DNA from: an uncultured Pelagibacteraceae bacterium
GTDB lineage: Bacteria > Pseudomonadota > Alphaproteobacteria > Pelagibacterales > Pelagibacteraceae
Length of the DNA stretch: 60,741 bases
Reading direction: 5' to 3'
Assembly (NCBI GenBank): GCA_902636025.1
Contig: CACPQG010000003.1
Span: forward strand, 1 to 60,741
Made by a program: the position numbers and the translations under genes. This document shows positions 26,981 to 31,826 of this stretch, piece after piece. Position 1 is the first letter of the stretch. The number at the start of each line of letters is the position of its first letter. Below the pieces are notes generated by a model. That model searched no databases. It was not told the DNA's origin and saw nothing but the letters and a program-made list of their open reading frames with translations.

Positions 26981-27823
26981 ATGGAATTCATTAAGCTTGT
27001 TGGACCATTTGGTGTCTTTTTTATAATGTTTGCATTAGGTCTTAACTTAAATATTAATAGATTTGTTAGAGTATTCAGCAGACCAAGGAATTTTATAATT
27101 GGTATATTATGTCAAGTCATTATTCTTCCTATTATTGGCTTGGTAGTTATCAGTTATTTACCTATGGAGAAGGAATTTCAAATTGGAGTTTTTCTTTTGT
27201 TAATTATGCCATCTGCTGCAATGTCTAATTACGCCACAAGAATTGCCGATGGAAACGTTCCCTTATCTATTTGCCTGACATCAATCTGTGCATTAATGTC
27301 TTTTGTAACAGTCCCGTTATATTTAAATTTTTTTTCAAAATTTTTATACAATCAGAGTTTTGACTTACAATTGTTTACTTTTTCAATTAAAACATTTTTG
27401 TTTATCACATTACCGGTTTTTATTGGAATTTTTTTAAGGGAAAAATTTAATAATTTTGTAAAAAAATATACTTTCACACTTGATAGAGTAGCTTTTGTTG
27501 TTTTTTTAATAGTTGTTTTTATAGCTATTTATACCGAAAAAGATAACCTGGTAGGTTATTTTGATGATGTTGGGGTCACAATGAGTTTAATTTTAGTTTT
27601 AGTGTTTCTATCATCATTTATTATTACACAAATATTTATAGATGATGTTCAATCAAAAAGAGCAATTAGAATTGAGGCATTATTACAAAATGGTGCTATG
27701 GGATTTGTAGTTGGGGCATTAATGTTTTCTGAAATTAAATATCTAATTCCAATAACTATTTATGCGCTTCTACAATACTGTTTTCTTTTATTTTATTTAG
27801 GAAATATGAAATTAAAAAAATAA
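26981..27823 (+). CDS. BASS-family transporter, second copy
   Basis: A 280-aa membrane protein of the same family as the transporter at 2734-3582: FALGLNLNINRFVRVF near the N-terminus, MPSAAMSNYATRIADGNVP in the middle and EALLQNGAMGFVV toward the end. It has about nine hydrophobic helices. The family usually imports organic anions with Na+. It lies divergent from a two-HTH regulator and after the DMGDH-type gene region; no substrate is implied by sequence. The next gene, an FkbM methyltransferase, starts 10 bases later. Confidence 0.8.
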   Translation: MEFIKLVGPFGVFFIMFALGLNLNINRFVRVFSRPRNFIIGILCQVIILPIIGLVVISYLPMEKEFQIGVFLLLIMPSAAMSNYATRIADGNVPLSICLTSICALMSFVTVPLYLNFFSKFLYNQSFDLQLFTFSIKTFLFITLPVFIGIFLREKFNNFVKKYTFTLDRVAFVVFLIVVFIAIYTEKDNLVGYFDDVGVTMSLILVLVFLSSFIITQIFIDDVQSKRAIRIEALLQNGAMGFVVGALMFSEIKYLIPITIYALLQYCFLLFYLGNMKLKK

Positions 27824-27833
27824 TTTAAATAAA

Positions 27834-28532
27834 ATGATTAAATTATTTTATAAACCATATCTGTATTATAACTTGTTTATCCGTCATAAAATTCAAAATA
27901 AAAGGTCAACTTATTCTCAATTTCAGGAGGATTTATTTATCAATAACTTTTTTAAAGATAAATCTAATGGCTTCTATATTGATATTGGATGTTACCACCC
28001 TGTAAAATATAGTAATACCGCGTTAATTTATAATAAGGGTTGGTCTGGAATAAATATAGACTTAAACCAGACATCAATTGATTTGTTTAATATCGCAAGA
28101 AAAAGAGACAAAAATATTTGTGCTGCAATTTCAAATAATAATCAATTAGCTGAATTTTACTTTGATCATTTATTAAGTCCAGTAAATACATTAAGTAAAG
28201 AATTTTCTGATTTAAGTTATAAAAATATATCAAGAAACAAATATATCAAAAAAAGTATTCAAAAGTTTACCTTTGAGAAACTTATTGAAAAATTCAACTT
28301 AAAAATACCTAACATTGATTTTTTAAATGTTGATGCAGAAGCACATGACTTTGAAGTTTTAGAAGGATTCAATTTTGATAAATATAAGCCAAAAATAATA
28401 TGTGTTGAGCTTTATGATACCAAGTTAGAATTAAAAGAAGAAAAATTTAAAGACTATTTGACAAGTTTCAAATATTCATTAATTAAAAAAATTGGTCCAA
28501 ATGGAATTTTCTGTTATAAATCTAAATTTTGA
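27834..28532 (+). CDS. FkbM-family methyltransferase
   Basis: A 232-aa SAM-dependent methyltransferase. The SAM site is FYIDIGCYHPVKYSNT, with GINIDLNQ and the typical FkbM C-terminal DFLNVDAEAHDFEVLEGF. Members methylate sugar hydroxyls in polysaccharides and secondary metabolites. It lies 10 bases after the BASS gene and 18 bases before the cupin gene, at the left border of a surface-sugar region. Confidence 0.83.
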   Translation: MIKLFYKPYLYYNLFIRHKIQNKRSTYSQFQEDLFINNFFKDKSNGFYIDIGCYHPVKYSNTALIYNKGWSGINIDLNQTSIDLFNIARKRDKNICAAISNNNQLAEFYFDHLLSPVNTLSKEFSDLSYKNISRNKYIKKSIQKFTFEKLIEKFNLKIPNIDFLNVDAEAHDFEVLEGFNFDKYKPKIICVELYDTKLELKEEKFKDYLTSFKYSLIKKIGPNGIFCYKSKF

Positions 28533-28550: not shown

Positions 28551-28958
28551 ATGAGCATTATTAAGTCTCTTATTAAACAGTACAAACTGAAACCTCATCC
28601 TGAGGGTGGATATTATAGAGAAGTATTTAAAAATAAAGATGTCAGCCAAATTTATTTTTTATTAGAGGGTCATCAACATTCTCATTGGCATAGAATAACT
28701 AAAAATGAAATATTACATTTTTATTTAGGTAGTCCATTAATAATATATACCTCTAAAGACGGAGAGGAATTTAAAACTAATGAAATTGGATCTAAAAATA
28801 AATTTATATTTAGTATAGATAAAAACACTTGGTTCGCTATGAAGCCAGCGGGTTCATTCAGTTTAATCGGTTGCACCGTTGCGCCAGCTTTTGAATTCGA
28901 CGATTTGGAGTTAGCACCAAAAGATTGGAAACCTTCTAAATTTAATATTAATTTTTAG
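28551..28958 (+). CDS. Cupin_5 (DUF985) family protein
   Basis: A 135-aa single-domain cupin. KPHPEGGYYREVFKN, SQIYFLLEGHQHSHWHRI, EILHFYLGSPL and the C-terminal AVAPAFEFDDLELA are characteristic of the DUF985 family. It is a small metal-binding beta barrel of unknown reaction, sometimes suggested to act on sugar phosphates. It stands next to FkbM and before the tRNA-derived fragment. Confidence 0.82.
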   Translation: MSIIKSLIKQYKLKPHPEGGYYREVFKNKDVSQIYFLLEGHQHSHWHRITKNEILHFYLGSPLIIYTSKDGEEFKTNEIGSKNKFIFSIDKNTWFAMKPAGSFSLIGCTVAPAFEFDDLELAPKDWKPSKFNINF

Positions 28959-28993
28959 AATTTCTTGTTTGAATGAAAAAAAATAAGTAGCAC

Positions 28994-29025
28994 ATATCAA
29001 CAAGAATTCAATCGCGGGGTAGCTC
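28994..29025 (+). repeat. Degenerate copy of tRNA promoter plus 5' end
   Basis: This 32-base stretch matches 27 of 32 bases, without gaps, to 30861-30892, which covers the leader and the first 13 bases of the intact tRNA. The last 12 bases, GCGGGGTAGCTC, are identical. After that the match stops and no D-, anticodon or T-arm follows. The two copies are in direct orientation 1.87 kb apart and bracket an FkbM methyltransferase and a PhyH-like gene. It reads as a remnant of duplication or insertion at the tRNA gene. Confidence 0.7.
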
Positions 29026-29041
29026 TAATTTAACTAATAAA

Positions 29042-29740
29042 TCAAAAAAACATGTTATTAATATAAATTCTATCTTCCCACTTCTGGAAGGGAGTTTTAA
29101 AGCATTTAACAAGTCTGAAATTATTTTTTGTTAAAAAATTTTCTATTTTTTTATTATCATAATTTAGATACATGTCATGAAAAGAAAATTCAATTAAAAT
29201 TATTTTAATATTCTTTATTAATTTTTCCGCTCCTAATAAAACTGACATTTCGTGACCCTCGGTGTCAATTTTTAGAAAATCAATCTTTTTTATTTTTTTT
29301 TTTAAGCAAAAACTATCAATTTTTTGAACCTCAACCTTCTCTTTCTTTAAAAAAATTTTTTCTCCTAAAATGTTTGATTTAAAAGTTAAATATTTGGAAG
29401 CATCGTTCAAGAAAGAAAATGTTGATGTTCCTTCCTGATAACTAATGTTTAAATCTAACAATGTATCTTGATCACTTATTCCAAGATTGTATATATTAAT
29501 ATTGTTGTAGCTTTTATAGTGATTTAATTTTTCATAAATTTTTTTTTCAGCTTCAAAAGCATAAATATTAAAATTGGATTTATAAATATTTAGACAAATA
29601 TCTATGAAAGATCCCTTATAACATCCTACATCAAAAATTACATTAACACCTGAATTAAAATATTTATTTATATAATTTTCAATTCTTTTTAAGTGATATT
29701 TTTGATGAATATAGTCGAGAATTTTGGGGATAATGGCCAT
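29042..29740 (-). CDS. FkbM-family methyltransferase, second
   Basis: A 232-aa SAM-dependent methyltransferase with VNVIFDVGCYKGSFIDI (SAM site), IYAFEAEKKIYEKL and the FkbM-type segment DFLKIDTEGHEMSVLLGA. The expected substrate is a sugar or polysaccharide hydroxyl. It is divergent from the PhyH-like gene, and both lie between the degenerate and the intact tRNA copies. It differs clearly from the FkbM protein at 27834 and is not a recent duplicate. Confidence 0.83.
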   Translation of the reverse strand: MAIIPKILDYIHQKYHLKRIENYINKYFNSGVNVIFDVGCYKGSFIDICLNIYKSNFNIYAFEAEKKIYEKLNHYKSYNNINIYNLGISDQDTLLDLNISYQEGTSTFSFLNDASKYLTFKSNILGEKIFLKKEKVEVQKIDSFCLKKKIKKIDFLKIDTEGHEMSVLLGAEKLIKNIKIILIEFSFHDMYLNYDNKKIENFLTKNNFRLVKCFKTPFQKWEDRIYINNMFF

Positions 29741-29803
29741 TGCGAATTAATACTAATTGTTTATAAAATAAATTTAAAGATAATTCTTAAAAAACTATTT
29801 AAT

Positions 29804-30802
29804 ATGTTTAAAAAAACGTTCTTTTTAATTAAAACTTTTTTCACACAAGTTATAATTTATTTTAGGCTGATAAAAAATTATAAAAAATTGGCAAGAAGAA
29901 AAAATTTAAGTTTTTATATCTTTTCAATACCACCTATTGGATTTTTTCTTTATTTAATTTCAAAAATTATTATAAAATCTAAAAATCGATATTTAGCAAA
30001 CTTATTTTTTGATATATTTGTATTTAAGTCTATCATTAGATTTTTATCACCGGAGGAAAAAAAATATATTTCAGAAATATTAAAATCTTATAACTTGTTA
30101 TCTCTTAATGAGATTAAAAAAATTAACCTAGATAATGTAATAAATATGAAAGTTTTAAATTTAGAAAATGATGGCTATTGTAATTTAGGTAAAATATTTT
30201 CTGACCAAGAATGCGATAATTTTATAAAAAATCTTAATGGTAAAGACTGCTATAATAGTCAAACACCAATGCAAAGCGATGGTAACTTGTTGAAATTTGA
30301 CCAATCAAAAGATACTTTTTCTAAATCTAATTATTCTTACTTTTCATTTTTGCCAGAGGATACATTGTCATTTTTACCAATAAAGAAACTTTTAAATGAC
30401 AAAAACTTAGTCAGTATAATAAAAAGTTATTTAAATTTTGAACCTGAGATATACAGTTGTGTTACTTGGTTTAATCCAAAAAGTAAAAAAAATCATTATG
30501 TTCATAGGCTTCATAGAGATCCTGACGACTTCAAATTTTTAACAATGATAATATATTGGAATAAAACTAATCAATCAAACGGCGGTATTTTTTATTTAAA
30601 AAAATCCCATAACTCAACCGTGAGTGAAGAAAAAAAGGATTTTCTTACTGGACCAAAAGGTCAGGTTTACCTAGCAGATTTATTTGGTCTTCATGCCGGC
30701 GGTAAAATTTTAGATAATTATAGATACGTGACTTACATTAGATTTGGTAAATTACACAATCATGCCTCAACAATTGATGCTTTTCTCACTACACCCGTTT
30801 AG
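29804..30802 (+). CDS. PhyH-like Fe(II)/2-oxoglutarate dioxygenase
   Basis: A 332-aa protein with a basic N-terminus and hydrophobic segments near residues ~50-75, then a dioxygenase-like C-terminal domain: the iron motif HRDPDD (HxD) in HRLHRDPDDFKF, GGIFYLKKSHN, and the distal histidine in DLFGLHAGG followed by YIRFG (2-oxoglutarate arginine). Similar enzymes occur in surface-glycan regions. I start at ATG 29804; a longer frame from 29693 overlaps the divergent FkbM gene and lacks matching family sequence. The substrate is unknown. Confidence 0.65.
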   Translation: MFKKTFFLIKTFFTQVIIYFRLIKNYKKLARRKNLSFYIFSIPPIGFFLYLISKIIIKSKNRYLANLFFDIFVFKSIIRFLSPEEKKYISEILKSYNLLSLNEIKKINLDNVINMKVLNLENDGYCNLGKIFSDQECDNFIKNLNGKDCYNSQTPMQSDGNLLKFDQSKDTFSKSNYSYFSFLPEDTLSFLPIKKLLNDKNLVSIIKSYLNFEPEIYSCVTWFNPKSKKNHYVHRLHRDPDDFKFLTMIIYWNKTNQSNGGIFYLKKSHNSTVSEEKKDFLTGPKGQVYLADLFGLHAGGKILDNYRYVTYIRFGKLHNHASTIDAFLTTPV

Positions 30803-30835
30803 AAACCTACATAAATTGTTTTTTTATAATCATTA

Positions 30836-30863
30836 TTGCACTTAAAATTAAAACTATTATATA
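30836..30863 (+). promoter_or_regulatory. Candidate promoter of the tRNA gene
   Basis: TTGCAC (30836-30841) and TATATA (30858-30863) are spaced by 16 bases, and transcription would start about 10 bases before the mature tRNA. The last part of this leader is what is copied in the degenerate fragment at 28994. Confidence 0.45.
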
Positions 30864-30879
30864 TCAATATTAATTGAAT

Positions 30880-30956
30880 GGCGGGGTAGCTCAGTTGGTT
30901 AGAGCGCGGGACTCATAAGCCCGAGGTCAGTGGTTCGATCCCACTTCCCGCTACCA
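30880..30956 (+). tRNA. tRNA with CAU anticodon (probably elongator tRNA-Met)
   Basis: A complete 77-base tRNA with an encoded CCA end. The acceptor stem (GGCGGGG pairing with TCCCGCT, G-U allowed), D-arm (GCTC/GAGC), anticodon arm with CAT at 30914-30916, and T-arm (AGTGG/CCACT around TTCGATC) all fold. The D-loop and lack of three GC pairs before the anticodon loop argue against the initiator. Position 31-39 would be an A-G mismatch. A CAU anticodon can also be tRNA-Ile (lysidine), which I cannot exclude. It ends at the stop codon of convergent rmlA. Confidence 0.93.
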
Positions 30957-31826
30957 CTAATCAATCAATTTTTTTAAATAATTTGAATATTCACAATTTC
31001 CATAAAACTGTATAGCGTTCTTAACTTCTTTTTTGGAAATCCATTTATTGTTTAAAGCTATCTCCTCTAAACATGCAATCTTAAAACCTTGTCTATTCTC
31101 TATAGCTGATACAAAAGAACTAGTTTTGTAAAAATCCTCAATCGAACCTGAGTCTAGCCATGCTCCACCTCTACCTATTAAATCTGCAGTTAATTTTTTG
31201 TTTTTTTTATATTTATTTATTAAATCAACAATTTCTAATTCTTTTCTTTTTGATGGTTTAAGTTTTTTTGCATAATTTACAACATTGTTATCAAAAAAAT
31301 ATAAACCAGTTATAGCAAGATCTGAAAGAAATTTTTTCGGTTTTTCTTTTATATTAATAACCTTTTTTCTTTTATCTATTTTAGCAACTCCATAAAGTTC
31401 TGGTTTATTTACTTTATGTAAAATTATTTTTGCACCTTTTTTTAATTTTACAGAATTTAATAATTGTTTAGTTAAATTCTGACCATAAAAAAAATTGTCT
31501 CCAAGAATTAATGCAACATTATCCTTTCCAATAAATTTTTGTCCTAGTATGAAGGCGTCTGGCAAACCTCTAGGAGAGGATTGTTCTTTGTAGGTGATAT
31601 TTACTCCAAAGTTATTACCATTTGGAATTATTTTCTTATATTGTGAGAGTTGTCCTTTGTTAACAATGATTAATATATCTTTTATTTTTGCTAACATTAA
31701 AATTGAGAGTGGGTAAAATATTAAAGGTTTATCATAAATTGGAAGCAATTGTTTATTCACTGCTTTTGTAAGTGGGCTCATCCTTGTTCCCATTCCACCT
31801 GACAATATTATACCTTTTTTAATCAC
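30957..31826 (-). CDS. rmlA: Glucose-1-phosphate thymidylyltransferase
   Basis: A 289-aa nucleotidyltransferase with the activation motif GGMGTRMSPLTKAVNKQLLP, PLIFYPLSILM, LILGDNFFYG and GAWLDSGSIED. It makes dTDP-glucose, the first step to dTDP-rhamnose and other deoxysugars. Its start overlaps the rmlB stop by 4 bases. Its stop follows directly on the convergent tRNA. RmlC and RmlD are not in the window. Confidence 0.93.
   Translation of the reverse strand: MIKKGIILSGGMGTRMSPLTKAVNKQLLPIYDKPLIFYPLSILMLAKIKDILIIVNKGQLSQYKKIIPNGNNFGVNITYKEQSSPRGLPDAFILGQKFIGKDNVALILGDNFFYGQNLTKQLLNSVKLKKGAKIILHKVNKPELYGVAKIDKRKKVINIKEKPKKFLSDLAITGLYFFDNNVVNYAKKLKPSKRKELEIVDLINKYKKNKKLTADLIGRGGAWLDSGSIEDFYKTSSFVSAIENRQGFKIACLEEIALNNKWISKKEVKNAIQFYGNCEYSNYLKKLID

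Follow-up and report, generated by a model that had tools for sequence, protein, structure and literature searches.

The window analysed here, 60,741 nucleotides of contig CACPQG010000003.1 (assembly GCA_902636025.1) from an uncultured Pelagibacteraceae bacterium, contains a 1.85-kb segment that is almost certainly an insertion at the 5′ side of a tRNA-Met gene. Read from the left, the DNA is composed of an old leader with tRNA bases 1–13, the segment, and a second, different leader with a complete tRNA. The best explanation of the arrangement as a whole, held with modest confidence, is that a foreign segment carrying FkbM and PhyH genes was put in 5′ of tRNA-Met by a perhaps site-specific route and would then have been eroded.

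The tRNA stub, the two leaders and the flanking genes

The single tRNA of the window is an intact tRNA-Met (CAT) on the forward strand at 30880–30956/30953 (ARAGORN, Rfam), identical over 77/77 bases in 96 of the 116 relatives with a full copy. Positions 28994–29025 match 30861–30892 at 27 of 32 bases without gaps, and the 12-mer GCGGGGTAGCTC is identical in both copies (29014–29025 and 30881–30892); the start-to-start distance from the left copy to the tRNA is 1867 bases. The left 12-mer corresponds to tRNA bases 2–13, and the remaining tRNA sequence is absent after it. By sequence comparison and alignment to relatives, a stub of the original tRNA-Met (bases 1–13, with base 1 altered and 2–13 exact) was placed at 29013–29025 on the forward strand. 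The repeat described in the first-pass annotation, with its 12 identical bases, the intact gene at the right copy and the truncated left one, was thereby reproduced.

The 12-mer occurs at these two places only in the 929-kb genome with one mismatch allowed, so that the genome-wide check proposed for other 5′-tRNA fragments gave no widespread repeat. The same two places were the only ones in the window with two mismatches allowed, where shuffling expects 0.26 and two or more matches were reached in 3 of 100 window shuffles; base composition predicts about 6e-6 exact copies (4 kb, one strand). The score of the stub against the tRNA (24) equalled the top score of the reversed-tRNA control (24) over 232 stretches from 117 tRNA loci, the row for L150 having been left out as a slicing artefact. 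As the bare 12-mer is within chance in a survey of this size, the case rests on position and synteny. It is extremely improbable that the left stretch resembles the tRNA by chance, as a promoter-like or random sequence and no remnant of the gene: the 12-mer alone does no better than the best control stretch, but the DNA from the cupin gene through the leader to tRNA base 13 aligns unbroken with the relative G026, the leader also aligns with G119 and G009, and the 12-mer is found nowhere else in the genome.

The surroundings of tRNA-Met were compared in 116 of 150 genus relatives, which were all those with a full-length copy listed. In three of them (G026, G119 and G009) the flanks of the window meet at one tRNA. 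In G026 the left flank, from −2330 to −1854 relative to the tRNA of the window, aligns with −463 to 13 (85%, 535 bits), running from the cupin gene to tRNA base 13, and the right flank aligns from −36 onward over 10 kb at 93%; the contig extends for only about 500 bases on the upstream side of the tRNA and shows cupin, leader and a single intact tRNA-Met in that order. The corresponding values were 82% on the left (leader only) and 94% over 10 kb downstream for G119, and 88% (leader only) and 86% over 10 kb for G009, whose site is not bare, as a 122-aa gene of its own and element-type repeats are present. In each of these relatives the left alignment goes no further than tRNA base 13.

On the left flank, an SBF-type transporter gene (26981–27823, forward strand) is followed by an FkbM-domain gene (27834–28532, forward strand), both assigned by Pfam and synteny, and this order upstream of tRNA-Met is common to G119 and G009. 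A Cupin_5 (DUF985) gene (28551–28958, forward strand), with 84% protein identity to that of G026, is found at this place in G026 only. The right flank starts with an rfbA-like nucleotidyltransferase gene (30957–31826, reverse strand; Pfam, synteny) and is colinear over about 10 kb with G119 and G026 at 93–94%. The segment is absent at the site in the three relatives and has no full-length match in 398 relatives among the matches listed, in agreement with an insertion at the 5′ end of the tRNA; not every relative compared has the genes and the fragment.

A false join of two strains' contigs at the conserved tRNA is very unlikely. Such an artefact would be favoured by a tRNA sequence that many strains share unchanged and by a genome of 83% completeness in 33 contigs, but a long shared stretch exists at the right join only. 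The left join (cupin, leader, 13 bases, FkbM) lacks an overlap of this kind and would therefore not be expected from misassembly.

The left leader (28977–29012, forward strand) agrees with the G026 leader at 31/36 bases, plus 18/20 further upstream, and the TATA of its −10 region reads CACA. The leader before the intact tRNA (30844–30879, forward strand) is of another type, with 25/36 identity to the left one, 27/36 to that of G026 and 7/20 further upstream. By a simple pattern, a TATA-like motif was present in 114 of 115 relatives' leaders, the sole miss reading TATTAA; the right leader of the window has it and the left one does not. With its G026-like leader and lost −10 motif, the left copy is read as the abandoned original: judged from the continuity of the aligned sequence with G026, it is the promoter of the original tRNA with the first 13 bases. 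Leader comparison alone cannot date the copies, because over the last 36 bases the right copy is the nearer one for most relatives' leaders (74 of 116, against 37 for the left and 5 ties), and the age call rests on the continuity with G026. The leader of G119, for example, agrees with the right copy at 31/36 and with the left at 29/36, and the right leader matches that of G109 at 32/36. The leader part of the repeat match is to be expected, since the tRNA-Met promoter is conserved among the relatives.

Tandem duplication of the tRNA region, which had been offered beside insertion, was discarded: the leaders differ, the left one follows the cupin gene without a break, as in G026, and G026 has a single copy.

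The inserted segment and its genes

The inserted segment (29026–30843) has a GC content of 23% and contains no (0) direct repeat of at least 6 bases at 11-bp spacing. It holds an FkbM-family methyltransferase gene with a complete Pfam domain (29042–29740, reverse strand) and a PhyH-like dioxygenase gene (29804–30802, forward strand). The PhyH match is weak (24.1 bits, cut-off 22), so that of the two gene assignments made earlier the first was upheld and the second upheld weakly. FkbM and PhyH are the only Pfam matches of the two genes, and there is no integrase gene among them; surface modification may be the role of this cargo.

The top-scoring FkbM relative in 150 genomes showed 45% identity over 224 aa, this being a common domain, and one 96-aa stretch reached 48%. 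The PhyH protein was matched in 9 of 299 relatives; the top-scoring other match had 33% identity over 274 aa, and one 74-aa stretch had 45%. No donor for the PhyH protein was found in genome_contigs or viral_contigs with a single-protein query that can detect close relatives only. At the DNA level (29026–30850), with up to two candidate places scored per genome in 399 genomes, the only full-length match among the matches listed was in the window's own genome, many of the other 398 genomes being incomplete; the next-best match among those listed covered 200 of 1825 bases at 74%. No blastn match (E 1e-5) was obtained between the insert and the loci fetched around tRNA-Met in relatives.

The left end of the insert resembled five left ends of relatives' elements weakly, with random-stretch fractions of 0.03–0.05 for four and 0.54 for the fifth in five uncorrected tests, and its right end showed no similarity to five element right ends (0.19–0.95).

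tRNA-Met as a landing site in related genomes

Where a full-length tRNA-Met was listed for a relative, it was present in one such copy per genome. Partial copies of at least 44 bases were found near the full tRNA in 14 of the 116 relatives. Five carry 5′ fragments (bases 1–44, 1–57 or 1–63), all upstream, the 1–44 fragment matching its own tRNA at 42/44 bases; nine carry 3′ fragments starting at base 24, 25, 27, 28 or 31, all downstream, which correspond to 11 elements since two of the nine relatives hold two in tandem. The fragments of all 16 elements are on the strand of the tRNA and overlap in bases 31–44, that is, in the anticodon arm. The 24 same-strand matches of the fragment scan were made up of the 16 elements, four matches of 11–12 bases (one being the stub of the window), two at other loci (G011, G027) and two duplicates that arose because G101 was fetched twice. 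There was one opposite-strand match of 11 bases, and the reversed-tRNA control gave 2. Left out of the 116 were G053, whose stretch shows a 5′ fragment but lacks the full tRNA, and G011, with fragments at another locus and no full tRNA; L155 (the second fetch of G101) and L156 (the other locus of G027) were not counted.

Of 80 more genomes of the genus, the 12-mer is present in 55, and five contain two copies of it, 1.5–5.5 kb apart on the same strand of a single contig; the reversed 12-mer gave 2 matches. An integrase gene adjoins the left fragment in G187 and G222. Repeats with no visible integrase were seen in G156 (partly by Pfam, via L219) and G192 (by gene list), and G194 has a 55-base 5′ fragment and an insert without repeats. 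Overall, the 5′ fragments of relatives span 44–63 bases.

Use of the 5′ end of a tRNA had been called unusual. This is correct in general, the available part of the Islander paper (PMC4383910) reporting 5′ fragments in 159 of 3919 islands and an upstream 5′ fragment as an allowed configuration. It does not apply to tRNA-Met in this genus, where such use recurs: the 5′ type makes up 5 of the 16 elements at tRNA-Met (binomial chance 3e-4 against the Islander share), although these five are not fully independent because three share one repeat type.

In the ends of 18 elements, 16 at tRNA-Met and two at other loci, 29 direct repeats of at least 6 bases were detected at 11-bp spacing, as compared with 0–4 at each of the other spacings from 8 to 14. 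At least one was present in 16 of the 18; G121 and G132 had none at this threshold, and a 5-base version was seen by eye in G121. Near the tRNA across 117 loci the signal was less clean, with 24 repeats at spacing 11 and 1–16 at the other spacings from 8 to 15. The 24-base repeat TGGTCCACTGGTGGTCCACTGATA was found at 13 places in genome_contigs (84,980 species, one genome each), all in Pelagibacteraceae and four of them in genomes already in the relatives' set. In 11 of the 13, tRNA-Met bases 1–63 lie 36 bases before the repeat; of the other two, L225 has a mutated fragment and L222 none. A full tRNA-Met follows downstream in nine, and the other four run off the stretch. The exact patterns of three repeat types matched no viral contig.

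Eroded elements, with repeats before the tRNA and no 5′ fragment, were found in G126, G029 and G009, and the same erosion with another repeat in G090, within 4.5–9.9 kb of upstream coverage; in G017, with 865 bases upstream covered, repeats were likewise present without a fragment.

In a set of 22 genomes that included the window's own, 14 had a Phage_integrase match, and 12 of these had one match; the single frames, of about 310–327 aa, are taken to be putative Xer recombinases. Within the integrase-less elements of the 22 genomes no Phage_integrase was found. The element at tRNA-Met of G187 (L232, C15:1-9000) is 5.5 kb long, with a 58-base 5′ fragment, GATCACA repeats at its bounds and genes for a tyrosine integrase, an AAA/primase-like protein and a terminase small subunit. 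From these genes the element may be regarded as satellite-like, its gene set presumably resembling that of PICI-type phage satellites. Its repeats resemble those of the integrase-less G077 element and those of the two elements located off-site, in G011 and G027.

The following were recorded beside these counts. A 4.5-kb element of G222 (L233, C12:14000-21438) at the same site has an integrase, a primase-like protein, and GGGCACA and GGACTCA repeats. A 12-kb island of G082 (L214, C1:1-14000) on the 3′ side extends from tRNA-Met to a phosphoribosyltransferase-like gene and contains an integrase, a DNA-methyltransferase-like gene (by eye) and, near 9.0 kb, a further att region in inverted orientation; it lies beyond the contig end of the G082 tRNA stretch and outside the 11 3′-side elements. 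In G011 (L054) and G027 (L156) a protease-type gene stands between GATCACA repeats, with tRNA-Met pieces 22–56 and 1–46/1–51 at the ends; this locus, after hisA/hisF-like genes (named by eye), is perhaps a secondary insertion site.

Possible routes of insertion, known systems and element cargo

The foreign 1.85-kb segment almost certainly entered on the 5′ side of the one full-length tRNA-Met (CAT) of the genome. We infer that this DNA brought along a tRNA promoter and the 5′ part of a tRNA, so that the tRNA would have been rebuilt with an imported front and its original back; the imported promoter would now drive it, and the old front end would have decayed to the stub. By the most likely route, a tyrosine integrase acting in trans would have recombined the DNA site-specifically within the anticodon arm, as is also proposed for the relatives' 5′-side mini-elements at tRNA-Met; the element ends and most of the displaced fragment would have been lost afterwards. 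The insert is like these mini-elements in site, side, orientation and approximate size, and in that the intact tRNA is preceded by a leader of its own. Unlike them, it has no 11-bp-spaced repeats and a fragment of 13 bases, against fragments of 44–63 bases that reach the anticodon arm. The G194 insert is also repeat-less but keeps its 55-base fragment. With no repeats and 13 bases of tRNA, the insert of the window would be either an eroded member of the group or an import by ordinary recombination.

The site-specific route has about an even chance. In its favour are the 5′-side elements in 5 of 116 relatives and in 5 of the 55 further genomes with the 12-mer, the eroded elements found elsewhere and the repeat-less insert of G194; against it are the missing repeats, the short fragment, the weak or absent likeness of the insert's ends to element ends, the two separate losses that are needed and the new leader, which is like the ordinary leaders of other lineages and not like that of the GGTCCAC elements. 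Ordinary recombination without an integrase is to be taken seriously, if improbable on balance, and was rated slightly below the site-specific route. A donor with the order FkbM, PhyH, tRNA-Met would have crossed over within the identical tRNA on the right and joined with short or no homology at tRNA base 13 on the left. The insert without element end repeats, the arbitrary fragment length, the resemblance of the new leader to those of other lineages, the conserved downstream flank and the tRNA identical in 96 of 116 relatives as a ready anchor are all consistent with this event. The right flank is homologous to relatives, and at the left join no homology was identified. However, the donor arrangement was not found in the 398 relatives among the matches listed, nor a donor of the PhyH protein in the contig collections, and a one-sided join that leaves a stub is probably rarer than a clean double crossover.

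On a broader reading, the tRNA-Met (CAT) of Pelagibacteraceae would be a landing site used from two sides. Integrase-bearing satellite-like elements and the more numerous integrase-less elements of 0.5–3.5 kb would enter it via the anticodon arm, replacing either its back half or its front half with the promoter, and the integrase-less ones would be moved in trans by integrases reading matching 11-bp-spaced arm repeats. The window would then be an eroded front-side member, and its tRNA gene would consequently run on the promoter of a mobile element. This broader reading is tentative and falls a little short of an even chance.

Few free-living cells have genomes as small as those of SAR11, which are often described as poor in mobile elements. 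If the two-sided reading is true, repeated uptake of pieces of one to a few genes, mostly integrase-less, would be a cheap route of gene gain, and in the 5′ mode mobile DNA would repeatedly replace the promoter of a tRNA that has one full-length copy per genome. A standard island finder would miss such pieces by design: according to the available part of its description (PMC4383910), Islander rejects candidates without an integrase or below 2 kb, its length range being 2–200 kb, and these filters would reject the segment of the window. The segment is like the tRNA islands described there in having an intact tRNA at one end and a displaced fragment at the other, on the same strand and on the correct side, and differs in its length below 2 kb and in the lack of an internal integrase.

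CIMEs, as portrayed in the accessible text of PMC5704250, are cis-mobilizable elements, decayed ICEs or IMEs, which keep att sites and have lost integration and transfer genes. This description suits those integrase-less elements of the relatives that have both ends, but many of the small elements combine closely similar ends with differing cargo, and the insert of the window is without ends and visible arm-type repeats. Compared with phage satellites (PICI, PICMI; VEIMEs, tycheposons), the insert has no integrase, AAA/primase-like protein or terminase small subunit. The accessible sections on pelagic flexible genomic islands (PMC10872708) place islands at tRNA genes, with copies of the final 20 bp of tRNA-Lys marking an additive one; such copies represent the 3′ end, whereas here both sides of one tRNA are used. 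In the part of Wilhelm 2007 available (PMC2217521), HVR4 is flanked by tRNA genes and HVR2 holds an integrase, and no discussion of tRNA islands was found in the available part of a SAR11 ecogenomics paper (PMC7318151). No paper on integrase-less elements at SAR11 tRNA-Met was found in the open PMC literature, a weak absence as subscription papers and preprints are outside that scope.

Three viral contigs (L168, L169 and L170) contain a near-complete tRNA-Met, 755 bases of L169 being covered. A 424-aa integrase-type gene lies beside the tRNA in L168 and L170 (Pfam for the L168 gene only), and the only 11-bp-spaced repeats of these two contigs flank the tRNA. Integration of such viral DNA might leave two tRNAs.

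Ten element proteins were compared with Pfam. An HNH nuclease, a DUF4379/CapR zinc-finger type, T5orf172, an Mrr-type restriction nuclease and trypsin-PDZ were matched; four proteins had no family, and one (G194) gave weak methyltransferase matches only. Signal-like starts were seen by eye in many further element genes. Small cargo proteins in L044, L045, L046, L231 and L215 have the near-identical start MKKLLGIVVLGLL and differing bodies, and a protein with this start adjoins an integrase once (G124 C5).
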